Assembly (NCBI RefSeq): GCF_002077945.1
Contig: NZ_LVYD01000013.1
Coordinates: forward strand, 186,001 to 250,000
Direction: 5' to 3'
Source of the DNA: Niastella vici
GTDB lineage: Bacteria; Bacteroidota; Bacteroidia; Chitinophagales; Chitinophagaceae
Length of the DNA: 64,000 nucleotides
Numbering within the stretch: position 1 is the stretch's first letter; every line of letters starts with the position of its first letter. The position numbers and the translations under genes were made by a program. Positions 9,135-51,602 of this stretch are shown in pieces. Under the pieces are notes generated by a model, which worked only from the letters and a program-made list of their open reading frames with translations, was not told where the DNA came from and searched no databases.

Positions 9135-9212
9135 CAAGACCTGACAGAAATAATTACCCGCTTATACAACTGCTTAGAAGGGGGGACGCGAGGGGGAAAG
9201 GAGAAATTCTTA

Positions 9213-9515
9213 TTGGCGGGAAGTGAGGTCGCCAAGGATTGTTTGCGTTTGATTCACTCTTCCAAGGCCGCAATCTTTGCATATAGCAAATATAAATCTT
9301 CCACCGACGAACACGCTGACAGCGCAGTTTGGTTAATTAAGCAGCTAGCGCATCCAGTTTCTTTTCGGTGGATAGAGGCGTTTTTGAATGATGCAAATGT
9401 TATAGGTTGGGGGCTCGGGGTTTGGGATCAGCTCCAAATTCCATATGACGAAAAGGCTGAGGCGCTGATACAAATGGCTCTGACCAACTCTAAAGGACAA
9501 TTGACCCACCAGTAG
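9213..9515 (+). CDS. Small hypothetical protein, start uncertain
   Basis: About 100 residues. The first possible start is a TTG at 9213, and the frame stays open further upstream, so this could be the C-terminal part of a longer or broken gene. It is helical, with WLIKQLAHPVSFRWIEAFL and GWGLGVWDQLQIP as distinctive stretches. No family is recognised. It follows the 9011 repeat on the plus strand, in the run of small genes. Confidence 0.45.
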   Translation: MAGSEVAKDCLRLIHSSKAAIFAYSKYKSSTDEHADSAVWLIKQLAHPVSFRWIEAFLNDANVIGWGLGVWDQLQIPYDEKAEALIQMALTNSKGQLTHQ

Positions 9516-9678
9516 ACCTCATACGTGATTATCTGCGGGAGAATACTGAGTAAGGGTTGGTATGTTGAACCATTCCCACCTGAGTTGTATTTGCGCAATA
9601 AGTAGCGTATTTTAGCAGAAATACATCTGTAAGCGGCAAGCATTTACACCCTACCAACACAACGTAACAATTAGACAA

Positions 9679-10500
9679 ATGAAACGAACCACAGGCATTT
9701 TCAGTTTGACATTTTTAATTTTATGCTCTTGCCAATCTACTACTAATAATGCCAATTCAGAAGAAGAAGATATAATTTTCAAGGACAATTCGGGACATTC
9801 TTTATCGAAGAGTGACCTTGCAAATGTCACCGGACAAGTAAACTATGAAATTGTGAGCAATCAAACTATTGATGCAACAGCTAAAGCTTTGCATAAGGAA
9901 GCAAGAGAATTTGGACAAGCTGGCAGATACGATTTATCTATTGCTAAACTTGAACAAGCAGTAAAAATTCAGCCGACTTGGGCATACCCAACTTATGATT
10001 TGGCTTACACATATTTACTGAAAGGCGATTTTGACAACGCTTTAAAATTTTACAAAAAGACCGATGAATTAGAACCAAAGGGATTTTTCACAACAAAGAC
10101 GGCTTTATACTCATTGGAAGGAGAACAATCAGGAAAATTCCCAAAAGGCTTGTATACAGCTTACATGCAAATTGAGTGGACAAATGACACAAACAAAAAA
10201 CTTGAAATTGCAAATGCTCTAACTGCAAAAGCTCCAGACTTTGCACCTGCTTGGAAAGAACTTGCAAACCTGCTAAATGACAAAACAGAAAGACTAAAAG
10301 CAATTGAACAAGGGCTTTCAAAAAATCCTGATGCTGACACTAAAGGAATTTTAGAAATAAACAAAGCAATTATATTGAATGAAAGGGGAAAGACAGAAGA
10401 TGCTAAACAACTTTTAGGAAACCTCATTTTTTCACCCGATGCGACTACAGGAAATGTAGAATTAGCAAAATTTACTTTAAAAACAATTACTGAAAAGTAG
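9679..10500 (+). CDS. TPR-containing lipoprotein
   Basis: 273 residues from ATG 9679. The signal sequence ends at a lipobox (LILCSC, Cys near residue 18). The mature part has an acidic linker and then TPR-type helical pairs, clearest at residues ~70-150 (SIAKLEQAVKIQP, AYPTYDLAYTYLLKGD, NALKFYKKTDELEP). Probable role: membrane-anchored protein-interaction scaffold; partner unknown. An imperfect long inverted repeat follows the stop codon immediately. Confidence 0.85.
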   Translation: MKRTTGIFSLTFLILCSCQSTTNNANSEEEDIIFKDNSGHSLSKSDLANVTGQVNYEIVSNQTIDATAKALHKEAREFGQAGRYDLSIAKLEQAVKIQPTWAYPTYDLAYTYLLKGDFDNALKFYKKTDELEPKGFFTTKTALYSLEGEQSGKFPKGLYTAYMQIEWTNDTNKKLEIANALTAKAPDFAPAWKELANLLNDKTERLKAIEQGLSKNPDADTKGILEINKAIILNERGKTEDAKQLLGNLIFSPDATTGNVELAKFTLKTITEK

Positions 10501-40183: not shown

Positions 40184-41242
40184 TTACCCGTATAATTCGG
40201 CTCGCATTTGTACTAATATTCCTTCAACCAGTTCTTTATCAGGAAGTGATGGTAAGGAACTGCTCAGTTCCGCTTTTTCAATGCGCTCCATAAGCGCATT
40301 GGCCATCGCCAGCAGTTCGTCGTATTGAAACCCGCCTGCTTTAATGGAAAGCAGTTCTTCCCGGTTTTGCCGTTTAACGTTCAATGTTCCGGTTGCCAGG
40401 ATCTCTTCTGCTACCTGCAGTAGCCTTATGGTATGCATCATGTTTTTGGCATCGTAACCTTTACCATGTTCTGCATTGCCCAGGTAACGGTCTTCGTTAC
40501 GTTTTTGAACCCATTCCCAATACTCCTTATAATCCTTGCAATAAGAAGAATAGCTTTCTATATTGAAATAGAGGTAAGCCATTTCTTTTTCACCTTTGGG
40601 TATGGATGATAAGGAAACATCATTGGCCAGTTCGCTGCTCATGATGCCCCGGTAGTGATGCCTGGCTTCCTTATCATAGAACAGGGCGTATAAACCTTTT
40701 GAATGGGGAATGCTGGTAAGCCCGCATTGTTCCTGTACAAAATGGTTTTGCGCCAGCCATTCATTCAAAGGAATTGAGCTGTGGCCCTGCAGTATGAAAC
40801 AGAAATCAGGTACCGTTTTCCTTTCGGCCTCAACCGGGTTTATGATCTTCTTTTTGTAGCCTCTTGCTTTTTTTATTTGCGTGAGGGCATAGCCGGCAAA
40901 GGTTTCTTTACAAAGTTTGCTCAGGAACATACTGATAGGCAGCCTGCTCATGATGGCATGCCTGTACAGTATGCAATCATCGGGTGATGCCAGTAGTTCA
41001 AGTATATTGGGGTTGTTCTTTATCAGCAATTCCACAAAGCGCCCCAGTTCATAGTACACCTCATCACTGGTTTCGTTGCTTATTTGCGAAATATATTCCA
41101 GTCCATAGAATTGCGCTTTGGGCAGGTAGTAAACGCCTTTCAGGTCTGTGTCGCTTTTGGCGGTGTTCAAACCATACGCTTTACTGCCGCTTATGCACTC
41201 GAAGAGCAACAACCCTTTTTCTTTTATCTCCTTAATGGTCAT
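40184..41242 (-). CDS. Nucleotidyltransferase, DNA polymerase beta superfamily (COG3541-type, RNA-repair-associated)
   Basis: 352 residues from ATG 41242, overlapping the end of the previous gene by 11 bp. The N-terminal motif SGSKAYG (about 18-24) with D-x-D (DTD, about 31-33) is the active site of polymerase-beta-type nucleotidyltransferases. A long helical C-terminal domain of about 250 residues follows. These proteins are thought to add nucleotides to RNA ends and are found with RtcB ligase, TROVE/Ro60 or WYL regulators in predicted RNA-repair clusters. Here the operon also carries a second nucleotidyltransferase and a tRNA-like RNA. Confidence 0.85.
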   Translation of the reverse strand: MTIKEIKEKGLLLFECISGSKAYGLNTAKSDTDLKGVYYLPKAQFYGLEYISQISNETSDEVYYELGRFVELLIKNNPNILELLASPDDCILYRHAIMSRLPISMFLSKLCKETFAGYALTQIKKARGYKKKIINPVEAERKTVPDFCFILQGHSSIPLNEWLAQNHFVQEQCGLTSIPHSKGLYALFYDKEARHHYRGIMSSELANDVSLSSIPKGEKEMAYLYFNIESYSSYCKDYKEYWEWVQKRNEDRYLGNAEHGKGYDAKNMMHTIRLLQVAEEILATGTLNVKRQNREELLSIKAGGFQYDELLAMANALMERIEKAELSSSLPSLPDKELVEGILVQMRAELYG

Positions 41243-41993
41243 ACTGCTTAATGGTTGTTACAAAGAATTCATCCAGTTTATCAGCGTCAAAATGATCTCT
41301 TTTCAATTGAGTCGATGCTTCGCTGATGCGGGCGAATTCGTTATCAATATAGGTTTTCAGTTCGGCACTTACTTTTATCACAAAGCTTTCCGCCGCGGTT
41401 GATTTTAAAGTGATCAATTCGCGTACCTGTTTTTGCAGGTGGGCGGGCAGTGCTGTCATTAAAGGGCCAATGGTCATAGGCGCAATGCTTTCTTTTTCCA
41501 AACACCATTTGGCTGCCAGCAGGGGCCGTAGCACATAGAACAGCTTTTTGATCTTTATTTCGCTGTCGTTGGCCATGGTTTCCAGCGCACCCTGCGCAAT
41601 ACCAAGGTAGTGATGAATATTCGATCGCTGGCCAAAAAAAGCCTGACTCAGCGACCAAAGGGCATTTCTAAAATCATCGTCCTGCCTGTAAATGATAGGG
41701 GACTGCAACCACTCAAAAGGCGTGGTGTTTGATTTTCGCATCAATTGCAACACCTTGCGTATGTCCCAGCCGTACATATCCAGGTCCCCGTTTATGGGAA
41801 AGTTCAGATCGTATTTGCGGTCGAGCACGGAAAGATAGAACCGGTAGGGACGCACATAAATAAAGCGTACATCATAATCGCTATCCGGCGACGGAAATTC
41901 CCATCCCCTGCTGCCCGATTCGCAGGCAAACAGGATCTTTATGTGCTGTTCCTGTTCTATTGCTGCCAGTTTGTTGATTATTGTTTGTTGCAT
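41232..41993 (-). CDS. Nucleotidyltransferase, DNA polymerase beta superfamily (COG3541/YcgL-like)
   Basis: 253 residues from ATG 41993, one base after the stop of the gene before it. The active-site signature GSRG (about 27-30) is followed by SDYD with D-x-D at about 39-41. A helical C-terminal domain follows. It belongs to the same superfamily as the next gene but to a different, shorter subfamily, so the operon encodes two distinct nucleotidyltransferases. Likely substrate: RNA ends, possibly of the tRNA-like transcript encoded just upstream (inference). Confidence 0.87.
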   Translation of the reverse strand: MQQTIINKLAAIEQEQHIKILFACESGSRGWEFPSPDSDYDVRFIYVRPYRFYLSVLDRKYDLNFPINGDLDMYGWDIRKVLQLMRKSNTTPFEWLQSPIIYRQDDDFRNALWSLSQAFFGQRSNIHHYLGIAQGALETMANDSEIKIKKLFYVLRPLLAAKWCLEKESIAPMTIGPLMTALPAHLQKQVRELITLKSTAAESFVIKVSAELKTYIDNEFARISEASTQLKRDHFDADKLDEFFVTTIKQYDH

Positions 41994-41994
41994 G

Positions 41995-42318
41995 TTATTC
42001 CACTTTATAAATGATCCTGTTCTGGTGTTCTGCTTCCACTACCCTGCCATAGATTATTTTCGTCCACCCGTTTTCAAAACCATGGTTATTGGCAATAAGG
42101 AATCCTTTGTTGGTGTCTTTTTTTATTACTTTATGTGCATCGATATACCTGCCCTTTACTTTGCAAAAAACAATATCGCCAATATCATAGTTGGCTGCTT
42201 TTACAAAAGTTAACAGGCTTCCATTTTTCAGGATGGGCAACATGGAGTTGCCGAATGCTTTTAGTTTTCCGGTTCCGGCTATATCCAAATCGTTTTTTAG
42301 CCGTTCATATTTGTTCAT
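41995..42318 (-). CDS. S24/S26-like peptidase-fold protein
   Basis: About 107 residues from ATG 42318 (MNKYERL); the frame extends to 42342. The LexA/signal-peptidase-like core is visible: GNSMLPIL with the nucleophile Ser (about residue 24), the GDIVFCKV strand, and IDAHKVIKK where the S26 H-(R/K)-V-I motif lies. There is no membrane anchor and no DNA-binding domain. It may be a self-cleaving switch or a sensor. It begins about 27 bp after the tRNA-like RNA and is the first protein gene of the operon. Confidence 0.8.
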   Translation of the reverse strand: MNKYERLKNDLDIAGTGKLKAFGNSMLPILKNGSLLTFVKAANYDIGDIVFCKVKGRYIDAHKVIKKDTNKGFLIANNHGFENGWTKIIYGRVVEAEHQNRIIYKVE

Positions 42319-42344
42319 TTCCTTTCTGATTAAAAAATACAAAA

Positions 42345-42541
42345 GGTTCCCCTGGTGAGATTCGAACTCACAAACCCATCACTGAGCTGTATGGCTGTAA
42401 ATACGCTTCCCTACTTTACGACAGGGTATTTCGGTGCACTGTAAACTCTACCCATAATTTCGCGCAGATATTACGGGAATTTCCATACACGCTGCGGTAA
42501 GCTAATTTTGCCGCAGGCTTTTCCTTTTAAGCTACAGGGGC
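42345..42541 (-). ncRNA. tRNA-like structured RNA, ~195 nt, first element of the nucleotidyltransferase operon
   Basis: Minus strand. The 5' acceptor strand GCCCCTG (42541-42535) pairs at 6 of 7 positions with CAGGGGA (42354-42348). U-A follows, then a D-arm GCTT-AAAAGGAA-AAGC (42532-42517) with the GG pair of real D-loops. A perfect T-arm GTGAG-TTCGAAT-CTCAC (42371-42355) precedes the 3' strand, which ends ACC, not CCA. In place of the anticodon arm there is a CTGCGG/CCGCAG stem with a 13-nt loop, then about 110 nt of extra hairpins (TGTATGG/CCATACA, CCCGTAAT/ATTATGGG). It is not a normal tRNA. It resembles the tRNA-mimicking YrlA RNAs of RNA-repair loci. Confidence 0.75.
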
Positions 42542-42548
42542 TGGTTAG

Positions 42549-42607
42549 GAAGTAAGATGTAAGAAGTAGGATTATTCCATAATCTTTTACTTCCTGCATC
42601 TTACTTC
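42549..42607. repeat. Long hairpin between the two tRNA-like modules
   Basis: A perfect 11-bp outer stem GAAGTAAGATG / CATCTTACTTC continues inward as an imperfect stem over nearly the whole 59 bp. It lies 8 bp upstream of the tRNA-like RNA on the minus strand. It could be a processing hairpin, a terminator of an upstream RNA, or an unrelated intergenic palindrome; the hairpin at 44032-44068 has a similar AGTAAGC/GCTTAC theme. Confidence 0.7.
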
Positions 42608-42706
42608 ACTTGTTTTACTTTGAGGTTATTATAAAATTTAATTAATCTATCAACAACGATGTTACAGCCGCTGTATTTCGCGCCCACGTTAATACTCTCT
42701 TCCGGT

Positions 42707-42730
42707 GCTCTACCACTGAGCTACTGCTTC
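42707..42730 (-). ncRNA. Partial tRNA-like module (acceptor 5' strand plus D-arm)
   Basis: On the minus strand GAAGCAG (42730-42724), then T-A and a perfect D-arm GCTC-AGTGGTA-GAGC (42721-42707), are indistinguishable from a real tRNA 5' quarter. No matching anticodon stem, T-arm or CTGCTTC acceptor partner follows. It may be the 5' domain of a longer leader RNA or a remnant of a second tRNA-like gene. Only the recognisable part is given; transcript ends are unknown. Confidence 0.55.
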
Positions 42731-42822
42731 GTGACAAAAACGGTAATTGAAAAAGTAAACTTTAAGATTTTGAAGTAACTTATTCTTGACCTGTTTTTGA
42801 TACAGCAAATATGCACATACGA

Positions 42823-42843
42823 CTGCGCAGCACACTTGCGCAG
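42823..42843. promoter_or_regulatory. Candidate operator 1 (CTGCGCA-N7-TGCGCAG)
   Basis: Perfect 7-bp inverted repeat with a 7-bp spacer, on the operon side of the divergent intergenic region. The same half-sites and spacing recur at 42935-42955. It is a likely binding site for the WYL regulator encoded next to it (inference). Confidence 0.6.
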
Positions 42844-42934
42844 CGATGAATTATTTTGTAACATGTTTTTAATTGTTTGGTGCACAGTTTATTAGCCGCT
42901 GAAATAATTTCTTCCCATAAAAAATATTGTCTTG

Positions 42935-42955
42935 CTGCGCAGTTCTATTGCGTAG
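42935..42955. promoter_or_regulatory. Candidate operator 2 (CTGCGCA-N7-TGCGTAG)
   Basis: Same palindrome as at 42823 with one substitution, extended outward by CTTG/CAAG to an 11-bp stem. It lies about 40 bp upstream of the WYL gene start, where it could allow autoregulation. Confidence 0.6.
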
Positions 42956-42995
42956 CAAGATTTAGCGTGCTATTTTTACGCATCGAAAACCTTAT

Positions 42996-44027
42996 ATGTC
43001 TGTAAATAAACTGGCCCTTATTCGTTATAAAACCATCGATGACTGTTTGCGAAACAGGTATCGTAAATGGACCCTGGACGACCTGATAGAAAAAGTAGCG
43101 GATGTACTGTACGAGCTCGAAGGTATTACCACCGGCGTAAGCAAGCGTACCATTCAGGCCGATATACAGGTAATGCGCAGTGACAAATTGGGTTACAATG
43201 CGCCGATCATTGTAGTTGACCGCAAATTTTATTGCTACAGCGAAAATGATTACAGTATCACCAATGCCCCGGTGAATAAAGCCGATGTGGAGAAAATGAA
43301 GGAGATCGTAGGGGTGCTGAAACAATTTAACGGGTTTACCTATTTTGATGAAATGAGCGAGATGATCGCGCGGTTGGAGAATAACGTATATCGTTCAACT
43401 CATCAGGGCCGCAATTATATTCAGTTTGAAAATAACAGGCTGGTGAAAGGGTTACAGCATATCAACCCCCTGTACCAATCTATTTTGAACAAACGATCAT
43501 TGCTGATAGAATACAAATCGTTCAAAGCAGCCGCTTCGCAACAGTTGATCTGCTATCCTTATTTACTGAAAGAATACCGCAACCGCTGGTTCCTGATAGC
43601 CCAGACAAAGAATAAAAAATTGTTGCTTACCATGGCACTCGACCGCATCATTGAATTTCAGGAGCTCATAAAAGAACCCTTTTTAGAGTATGGAGGACTG
43701 GATTTTGATCAGTATTTTGATGACCTGATAGGGGTAACCAAAACGGTCAAAGACCGTGCTCATAAGGTGGTGTTGTTTGTTGACAAATACAATGCGCCCT
43801 ATGTGCTTACCAAACCATTACATCATTCGCAAAGGGTGCTAAAAGAAGAAGAGAACGGTATTATAATTCGAATAGATGTAGTAATGAATTTTGAACTGGA
43901 AAGGGAGATCCTGGGTTTTGGCGAATGCATGAAGGTATTGGCGCCACGACTGCTGGCATCAAAGATAAAAGCGCGGTTGAGCAAGGCGAAGGAATGGTAT
44001 GAAGAGAAACCGAAGAGAGATACTTAA
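42996..44027 (+). CDS. WYL-domain transcriptional regulator
   Basis: 343 residues from ATG 42996. The N-terminal ~70 residues form a winged HTH (WTLDDLIEKVADVL, then SKRTIQADIQVMR as recognition helix). The middle and C-terminal parts carry the WYL ligand-sensing domain with YPYLLKEYRNRWFLIAQ (about 188-204) and a WCX-type C-terminal extension. WYL domains bind nucleic acids or nucleotides and commonly regulate defence and RNA-repair loci. It is divergent from the tRNA-like RNA/nucleotidyltransferase operon and probably controls it through the paired palindromes. Confidence 0.92.
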   Translation: MSVNKLALIRYKTIDDCLRNRYRKWTLDDLIEKVADVLYELEGITTGVSKRTIQADIQVMRSDKLGYNAPIIVVDRKFYCYSENDYSITNAPVNKADVEKMKEIVGVLKQFNGFTYFDEMSEMIARLENNVYRSTHQGRNYIQFENNRLVKGLQHINPLYQSILNKRSLLIEYKSFKAAASQQLICYPYLLKEYRNRWFLIAQTKNKKLLLTMALDRIIEFQELIKEPFLEYGGLDFDQYFDDLIGVTKTVKDRAHKVVLFVDKYNAPYVLTKPLHHSQRVLKEEENGIIIRIDVVMNFELEREILGFGECMKVLAPRLLASKIKARLSKAKEWYEEKPKRDT

Positions 44028-51200: not shown

Positions 51201-51602
51201 TTGGTGAACAGGCTGATTGCGGTCAGTGGGGAGTCGGCGACCCAAACAGGGACTCTGTTAGTTATTCCCCTTTCGATGTCGAGAGGTAGCTTACTGGTTC
51301 AGGCTGTTTCAGCAGAAGCTGCTAAAAACGCACTGAATTCCTGTGCGCACGGCGCTGGCAGAAGGTTGTCGCGCTTTGATGCCATGAAATACTGGAAAAC
51401 AGTATTGAAAGAAAAGGAACGCCGGGAATACAAAGAACGCTTCAGCGAGTTGCTGAACAGGTCTGGCAATTTTCCGCAGGGTTACATCCAGGAGTTTGAT
51501 TTTGCTTATAAGGATTCGACTGATATTTTAACTTATCAGTCTTATTTGAAAAAAGTAACACAAACAACGCCGGTAGTAACGATTAAGTATACGGAAATTT
51601 AA
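51201..51602 (+). pseudogene. rtcB: 3' fragment of an RtcB RNA ligase gene
   Basis: 133 codons (GTG start after an in-frame stop) match the C-terminal third of RtcB: SGESATQTGTLLVIPLSMSR, then NSCAHGAGRRLSR with the His that is guanylylated in RtcB (about residue 50), then GYIQEFDFAYKDSTDILTYQ and the ending VVTIKYTEI. RtcB joins 2',3'-cyclic phosphate and 5'-OH RNA ends. The N-terminal two-thirds with the metal-binding Cys/His residues are missing, so this piece cannot ligate. It keeps its own terminator, so the 5' part was lost. It may be linked to the RNA-repair-like locus at 40-44 kb. Confidence 0.8.

Follow-up and report, generated by a model that had tools for sequence, protein, structure and literature searches.

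What does an RNA gene with the fold of a transfer RNA (tRNA) do ahead of genes for RNA-repair enzymes? The question arises from a locus of Niastella vici on contig NZ_LVYD01000013.1, of which we analyzed positions 186,001 to 250,000 (64,000 nucleotides [nt] in total, referred to as the window). On the minus strand, a tRNA-like RNA of 195 nt is followed by a gene for a small S26-like protein and then by the genes for RlaP1 and RlaP2, while a gene for a WYL regulator is oriented divergently (Table 1). A previous interpretation of the DNA made without database searches, hereafter the sequence-only reading, had described an RNA-repair-like operon with its own tRNA-mimicking RNA. Our analyses agree with that description, based on the RlaP assignment of both enzymes, compensatory base changes in the RNA, and a repair-cluster gene or tRNA array near the RNA in 17 of the 18 bacterial genomes that carry it. 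With moderate confidence, we propose that the RNA is a trans-acting non-coding RNA that is matured like a tRNA and functions as an adaptor or cofactor of tRNA repair in a distributed regulon.

A tRNA cloverleaf with a large inserted domain

The 195-nt RNA has the acceptor stem, the D-arm with GG, and the T-arm with TTCRA of a tRNA cloverleaf in normal, i.e., not permuted, order, with ~115 extra nt in the variable region. Six of the seven acceptor pairs form, and positions 1 and 72 are an unpaired G-A. T8-A9 and a 4-bp D-stem with GG in the D-loop are present, the T-arm is perfect and contains TTCGAAT, and A73 is present; CCA is not encoded in the gene. At the anticodon position, a CTGCGG/CCGCAG stem of 5 to 6 bp carries a 13-nt loop. 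The acceptor, D-arm, T-arm, and anticodon-position stem, the length of about 195 nt, and the extra hairpins are all as the sequence-only reading had described them.

We found an S26-like gene in 11 of 59 related genomes, and the tRNA-like RNA was located directly upstream of it in 6 of these 11. A covariance model of the RNA matched 15 of 394 genomes of the family with >100 bits, the next best match scoring 40 bits. In a survey of the phylum, 4 of 395 genomes scored 158 to 211 bits, i.e., the N. vici genome itself and three genomes from another family of the same class, with the next best match at 38 bits. The RNA is thus carried by 18 bacterial genomes (15 of the family and 3 further ones of the phylum); both surveys used Infernal with stricter filters, with which weak copies may be missed. 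The 40-bit matches in G119, G113, and G189 were not counted, as they lack the core motif and a recognized cluster (G119 has only a nearby WYL-like gene). Weaker matches, many of which have the ordinary tRNA size of 73 to 86 nt, were set aside by length and score and not one by one.

All 17 complete copies have the normal tRNA order (the copy at L109 lacks its 5' end because the contig stops there), and 16 of the 18 have A73. In all 18 copies, the loop at the anticodon position is 11 to 17 nt long and has AAAA on the 5' side; none has the 7-nt anticodon loop of a decoding tRNA. The anticodon-position stem and the T-arm are 108 to 122 nt apart (120 nt in the window), and this region is folded into a long stem, a hairpin that covaries, a short stem (U-R-C/G-Y-A) tipped by a variable hairpin, and, ahead of the T-arm, the small hairpin of the variable arm. 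The RNA therefore departs from a decoding tRNA twice, i.e., in the long anticodon-position loop and in the large inserted domain.

In a MAFFT alignment of six genomes that was not fitted to the covariance model, 99.6% of cells pair compared to 96.8% in shuffled alignments and 38 to 45% when partners were slid; seven pairs change on both sides, and 0 of 500 shuffles equaled the alignment in pairing and changes. The alignments of 15 and 18 genomes were fitted to the covariance model and are hence biased toward it. In these, both-side changes occur in 30 of 45 pairs (15 genomes) and in 33 of 45 pairs in 150 cells (18 genomes). For the 18 genomes, 96.7% of cells pair, and covariation is 0.581 compared to 0.233 after shuffling and no more than 0.116 when partners were slid. 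Each of the eight helices contains one or more pairs with changes on both sides; among them are the acceptor, D-, and T-stems, where compensatory changes would, according to the sequence-only reading, support the structure. The anticodon-position stem is paired in 99% of cells, and the closing pair of the variable tip hairpin is of five types among the copies. Conservation is strongest in the inserted domain. Unpaired stretches such as AGUAGGGAAGCG are almost invariant and common to two bacterial families and viral contigs. The columns of the A-rich loop and of the UUU stretches, between which we considered a U-A-U triplex, are invariant, so that there is no covariation to read.

ARAGORN reported neither a tRNA nor a transfer-messenger RNA in the window. 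At the gathering score, no Rfam 15 family, including the Y-RNA models, matched anything in the window or the RNA in five further loci (L023, L103, L106, L107, and L109). Permissive Rfam matches around the RNA were at chance level; the best of these falls on a neighboring palindromic intergenic repeat, and a Y_RNA match (E-value 4.7) lies on a palindrome beside the RNA. The RNA could be a degenerate or intron-bearing tRNA gene without a function of its own, as the missing ARAGORN call and the position in or beside arrays of 9 to 15 tRNA genes in 5 of the 18 genomes would allow. We consider this very improbable, because compensatory changes occur in all helices and some unpaired stretches hardly vary between the copies from two bacterial families and from viral contigs.

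Neighbors of the RNA in bacteria and on viral contigs

In the window, the ATG of the S26-like gene lies 28 nt beyond the end of the RNA, a 1-nt gap separates this gene from that for RlaP1, and the two RlaP genes overlap by 11 bp. This coupling, the gene order, the divergent WYL gene, the two different polymerase-beta-type nucleotidyltransferases, and the S24/S26-like fold had all been recognized in the sequence-only reading and are borne out by the coordinates and by Pfam. RlaP1 and RlaP2 match PF10127, labeled RlaP, "RNA repair pathway DNA polymerase beta family," with 253 and 81 bits, respectively, at a Pfam cut-off of 23 bits. In the S26-like protein, the Ser (in GNSM) and the His of the S26B type, which we take to be the catalytic pair, are kept in 14 of 14 bacterial rows (13 distinct places); both are also kept in the viral rows described below, with the His one column off. 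The protein scores below the NCBIfam cut-off for S26 signal peptidases (25 versus 52 bits), and by inspection its 107 residues include no hydrophobic N-terminal segment that could serve as a membrane anchor. A search for solved structures similar in sequence found none for RlaP1 or RlaP2 and one chance-level match for the S26-like protein (E-value 0.025). An AlphaFold2 model of the latter, based on five close sequences, had a mean predicted local distance difference test score of 47.5 and was not used.

We examined up to about 7.5 kb on each flank of the 18 bacterial copies, and less at contig ends. A repair-cluster gene or tRNA array is near the RNA in 17 of the 18 genomes; the weakest contexts are L156, with only WYL, and L104, with only an AAA gene and tRNAs. 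WYL is encoded near the RNA in 12 loci, RlaP in 10, RtcB in 8, and S26 in 7. The scaffold protein encoded nearby is TROVE in three loci, SPFH in five (split into two reading frames in L108), and cl8, a large protein of about 750 amino acids with a weak Prok-RING match below the Pfam cut-off, in three; none was seen in seven. At the genome level, RlaP is present in 11 of the 15 RNA-bearing genomes of the family versus 55 of the 379 others (Fisher P = 1e-6), and RtcB in 17 of the 18 RNA-bearing genomes (the exception, G324, is a fragmented assembly) versus 191 of 394 in the family. The operon in the window lacks the RNA ligase gene rtcB, and contig C1 of the same genome carries an intact copy. 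The tRNA arrays are accompanied by genes for RNaseH_like (PF04308) proteins and/or AAA ATPases (families named on L107, relatives by blastp). In L103, the RNA starts 10 nt after one ordinary tRNA and ends 5 nt before the next and should therefore be excised as those tRNAs are.

In seven genomes (window, L014 to L017, L023, and L102), the RNA and both RlaP genes share a strand, the RNA being upstream and separated from them only by the S26-like gene and, in L102, by one further open reading frame (ORF). This arrangement, like the tRNA-like 3' end with A73, would suit an RNA that is itself extended by the RlaP enzymes or sealed by RtcB, i.e., a dedicated client and not a cofactor. We regard this as unlikely: the RNA occurs without RlaP in 4 of the 15 genomes of the family, and its gene shows neither a break site nor missing nucleotides. 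The RNA ends 19 to 37 nt ahead of the S26 start codon in six of the seven S26 loci, the exception being L015 with 157 nt; in L105, it ends 58 nt ahead of the longest TROVE reading frame. Such spacing would suit a leader that acts in cis and regulates the gene behind it through folding or tRNA-type processing. Such a role is more doubtful still, because the downstream neighbor varies between S26, TROVE, RtcB, ordinary tRNAs, other tRNA-like genes, and unknown ORFs, while the sequence and structure of the RNA persist, and because some viral copies lie only 4 to 16 nt from tRNA genes.

These viral copies come from IMG/VR, where the exact core motif and two variants selected 15 viral contigs. Eight of these match the covariance model over 156 to 224 nt with 39 to 70 bits (one is truncated at the 5' end), whereas a blastn search of phage and plasmid records with the RNA had returned no match. 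The eight source contigs are 380, 129, 46, 14, 244, 376, 154, and 39 kb long, five of them thus 129 to 380 kb, and based on size and the IMG/VR assignment, we presume them to be from phages, including giant ones. All eight examined pieces carry tRNA genes (1 to 24 each), which are at the short distance given above from the RNA in five cases. The viral loops at the anticodon position, judged by eye, do not resemble a 7-nt anticodon loop either. The 129-kb contig also encodes, about 3 kb away from the RNA, an S26-like protein that is 41% identical to the window protein over 93 residues. Relatives of this viral protein are encoded in 18 viral loci, itself included, on contigs of up to 412 kb; tRNA genes lie within 6 kb in 18 of 18, which ties the S26-like protein to tRNA biology. 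At one of these loci, L198, the model has a 29-bit match of 119 nt. In L208, the RNA occurs together with a TROVE relative (24% identity, E-value 8e-20). By eye, viral genes near the RNA (L182 4937-5812 and 7744-8583, L179 1935-2294, and L207 8289-9107) resemble those for a P-loop kinase, a Thg1-like enzyme, a Pth2-like peptidyl-tRNA hydrolase, and a tryptophanyl-tRNA synthetase.

The copies beside viral tRNA genes, together with the almost always paired anticodon-position stem, would also fit a decoy or sensor, which is the main rival to an adaptor or cofactor role and which we hold to be possible yet clearly less probable. Here, a tRNA-like anticodon arm would be offered to anticodon nucleases, and its cleavage would spare the real tRNAs or free a cyclic-phosphate fragment that switches on WYL, comparable to 5' tRNA fragments and RtcR in Salmonella. 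The AAAA-containing loop of 11 to 17 nt in every bacterial copy and the viral loops speak against a simple bait, for which the most conserved part of the RNA, the inserted domain, would be needless. Both the long loop, which does not resemble an anticodon loop, and the inserted domain are conserved, which favors an adaptor or cofactor over a substrate, decoy, or sensor.

Several further elements lie in or near these clusters. In the window, a truncated-looking C-terminal RtcB-type fragment is located at 51234-51600 on the plus strand (PF01139 positions 313-425). An imperfect inverted repeat of the GGAAGTAAGATGTAAGAAGTAGG type, which looks like an intergenic palindromic element, lies immediately upstream of the RNA (42540-42625), and a similar repeat flanks the RNA in L008/L015. 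A second tRNA-like RNA lies upstream of the cl8 gene (L013 2260-2600, L014 1850-2200, L015, L021, L022, and L109), with D-arm and T-arm halves apart and repeated GGTCAA...TTACTTC modules; cl8 may be a third protein of the scaffold type that has a tRNA-like RNA of its own. The relic at 42702-42790 keeps the 5' part and D-arm half of an RNA whose full counterpart lies upstream of cl8 in L013, L014, L015, L021, and L022, and the T-arm half is gone. As the window and L016 retain the relic without cl8, their ancestor probably carried cl8. We dropped an assignment of the relic as a TROVE-type Y RNA, because the comparison with related loci shows the cl8-associated type. Tandem, permuted-looking units of T-arm, acceptor, and D-arm adjoin SPFH genes (L103 11212-11278, L107 7722-7786, L108 7936-7999, and L024 9447-9516). 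Arrays of 9 to 15 tRNAs with AAA and/or RNaseH_like genes sit in or beside RNA-repair clusters of the phylum (L103, L104, L105, L106, L122, L133, L136, L158, L161, and L162). In L157, from the second bacterial family, a SUKH/SMI1-KNR4 immunity-type gene (9155-9724) lies between TROVE and the RNA.

Table 1. Features of the locus, in window coordinates
Feature	Position	Strand	Basis or remark
tRNA-like RNA	42541-42347	-	195 nt; covariance model and compensatory changes
S26-like small protein, 107 aa	41995..42318	-	Peptidase_S24 PF00717, E 8e-7
RlaP1, polymerase-beta-type nucleotidyltransferase	41232..41993	-	PF10127, E 4e-75
RlaP2, second divergent RlaP-type nucleotidyltransferase	40184..41242	-	PF10127, E 1e-22
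WYL/WCX transcription regulator, divergent	42996..44027	+	PF13280 and PF25583
Operator-like inverted repeat TACGCAATAGAACTGCGCA (read on -)	42936..42954	.	adjoins WYL
Second operator-like inverted repeat TGCGCAAGTGTGCTGCGCA (read on -)	42824..42842	.	112 bp from TACGCAATAGAACTGCGCA
Relic of another tRNA-like RNA	42702..42790	-	inspection versus L013, L014, L015, L016, L021, L022

An operator-like pair and the proposed regulon

Between the WYL gene and the RNA, a 19-bp inverted repeat of the pattern TRCGCA-6-YTGCGYA occurs twice, and its position suggests that it may be bound by WYL. In the 10-Mb genome of N. vici, the pattern has 15 strand matches at nine places, while a reversed control pattern has one match. 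Two pairs stand out, that of the window and one with a spacing of 111 bp just upstream of a TROVE gene on contig C48; this TROVE (Rsr) locus continues with three Y-RNA-like motifs that have T-arms. The presence of the same rare pair at both loci makes it probable that the window operon and the Rsr locus are regulated together, a claim that rests on this one genome. Among the loci that we collected, pairs 109 to 114 bp apart occur at 13 distinct WYL-bearing loci (L129 has two pairs, with its WYL gene cut by the end of the stretch) and also at three TROVE loci (L039, L040, and L042 in G000, G001, and G004), in which tblastn found no WYL gene in 14 to 17 kb. A single site is present at each of the TROVE loci of G003 and G015. 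The S26-like gene of G015 lies apart from other recognized cluster genes, and one site starts 59 bp ahead of its ATG. A further site at L174 2746 (G000:C48:12745) lies 76 bp ahead of an ORF of 527 codons with no Pfam family above cut-off, a candidate additional member of the regulon.

The RtcB locus of N. vici is on another contig and comprises genes for AAA, RNaseH_like, and 12 tRNAs. Its membership in the regulon is suggested mainly by linkage in sister genomes; in G005, the RtcB locus has two sites 154 bp apart inside the tRNA array. The sequence-only reading had known of no described set of RNA, S26-like protein, and two nucleotidyltransferases without Rsr. Indeed, the locus has no Rsr gene; however, Rsr and Y-RNA-like genes are present elsewhere in this genome. 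That the RNA, the S26-like protein, and the two nucleotidyltransferases form a self-contained set was not supported, because Rsr lies behind the same operator-like pair, RtcB and the tRNA array are on another contig, and S26 and RlaP are near the RNA in only 7 and 10 of the 18 loci, respectively.

Together, the independence of the RNA from any one scaffold, its placement for tRNA-type release, and the strong conservation of the extra domain argue for a trans-acting adaptor or cofactor. The RNA would be transcribed ahead of the S26-like gene and both RlaP genes, probably under WYL; RNase P and RNase Z, which process tRNAs, would release it by cutting at its 5' and 3' ends, respectively. The distributed regulon would include the window operon, probably Rsr and the Y RNAs, and perhaps RtcB and the reserve tRNA array. 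Maturation or repair proteins that bind tRNA would read the tRNA elbow and the acceptor, and the inserted domain would hold a partner from the repair machinery, as a Y RNA does for Rsr.

Several observations weigh against this proposal. The RNA is linked to no single protein: RlaP is missing from 4 of the 15 RNA-bearing genomes of the family, and 55 of the 66 genomes with RlaP lack the RNA. L101 has no recognized repair gene within about 7.5 kb of the RNA, and an AAA-WYL-SPFH-RtcB cluster lies elsewhere on its contig (L164). An operator-like pair is present in 6 of the 18 RNA loci, single or distant sites are present in 3, and no site is present in 9, so that control of other clusters must work differently or through diverged sites. 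The RtcB/tRNA-array locus of N. vici has no such site, even at two mismatches. On the viral side, 7 of the 15 motif-selected contigs fail to match the model, and the RNA is clear within 6 kb in only 1 of the 18 viral S26-like loci, that on the 129-kb contig.

Relation to other tRNA mimics

Bacterial Y RNAs of the YrlA type, which function with Rsr/Ro60, are likewise tRNA-mimicking non-coding RNAs in RNA-repair operons, and the Rsr locus of N. vici shares its operator-like pair with the window operon. In YrlA-type Y RNAs, the tRNA-like module is permuted and closed at the acceptor. By inspection, the Y-RNA-like genes near TROVE also look circularly permuted (T-arm, acceptor hairpin, and D-arm; L023 and L039), whereas the 195-nt RNA keeps the normal order, carries an inserted domain, and is without TROVE in 15 of its 18 loci. 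In the loci searched, Rfam matched neither the Y-RNA-like genes nor the 195-nt RNA. Burroughs and Aravind reportedly described, in NAR in 2016, a tRNA-like molecule of SPFH/Band-7 RNA-repair systems. That molecule is likewise reported to occur in RtcB/RlaP systems with SPFH. SPFH is encoded in 5 of our 18 loci; however, other loci of the 195-nt RNA encode TROVE or cl8 or show no scaffold, and the permuted-looking units beside SPFH, a second tRNA-like type, may be the Band-7 RNA.

In Salmonella, the rsr-yrlBA-rtcBA operon under RtcR control links Rsr, a tRNA-mimicking RNA, and RtcB to regulation by tRNA damage; compared to the available part of that report, our system has WYL instead of RtcR, an RlaP pair, an S26-like gene, tRNA arrays, and parts spread over three loci in the genome (PMC7790460). 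In the Anabaena trn operon, stress-induced reserve tRNAs are coregulated with RtcB under translation stress; the regulator is a ribbon-helix-helix repressor, and such an RNA is not mentioned in the available part of the report (PMC10272220). Jumbo phages have RlaP, RNA ligases, TROVE, and many tRNAs, and a tRNA-like partner of TROVE is mentioned; the available part of that report makes no mention of such an RNA or of an S26-like gene (PMC7824862). In the literature searched, with subscription journals mostly outside its coverage, we recognized no description of this RNA.

We suggest, with fair but not high confidence, that the RNA represents a class not yet described, in which a normally ordered tRNA body carries a giant structured domain in the variable region, that this class is common to WYL-linked bacterial repair clusters and tRNA regions of giant phages, and that both use the RNA with an S26-like helper to sustain the repair or protection of tRNAs under attack. 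Among the tRNA mimics that take part in bacterial RNA repair, Y RNAs are known best, and their role there is unsettled. A second, differently built mimic that occurs beside various scaffolds, has operator-like sites in common with Rsr in one genome, and is present on presumed giant phages provides a comparative handle on the purpose of the mimicry. The operator-like pair predicts which unlinked genes would be regulated together, and the occurrence of the RNA in bacteria as well as on presumed giant phages suggests an unexplored side of the conflict over tRNAs.

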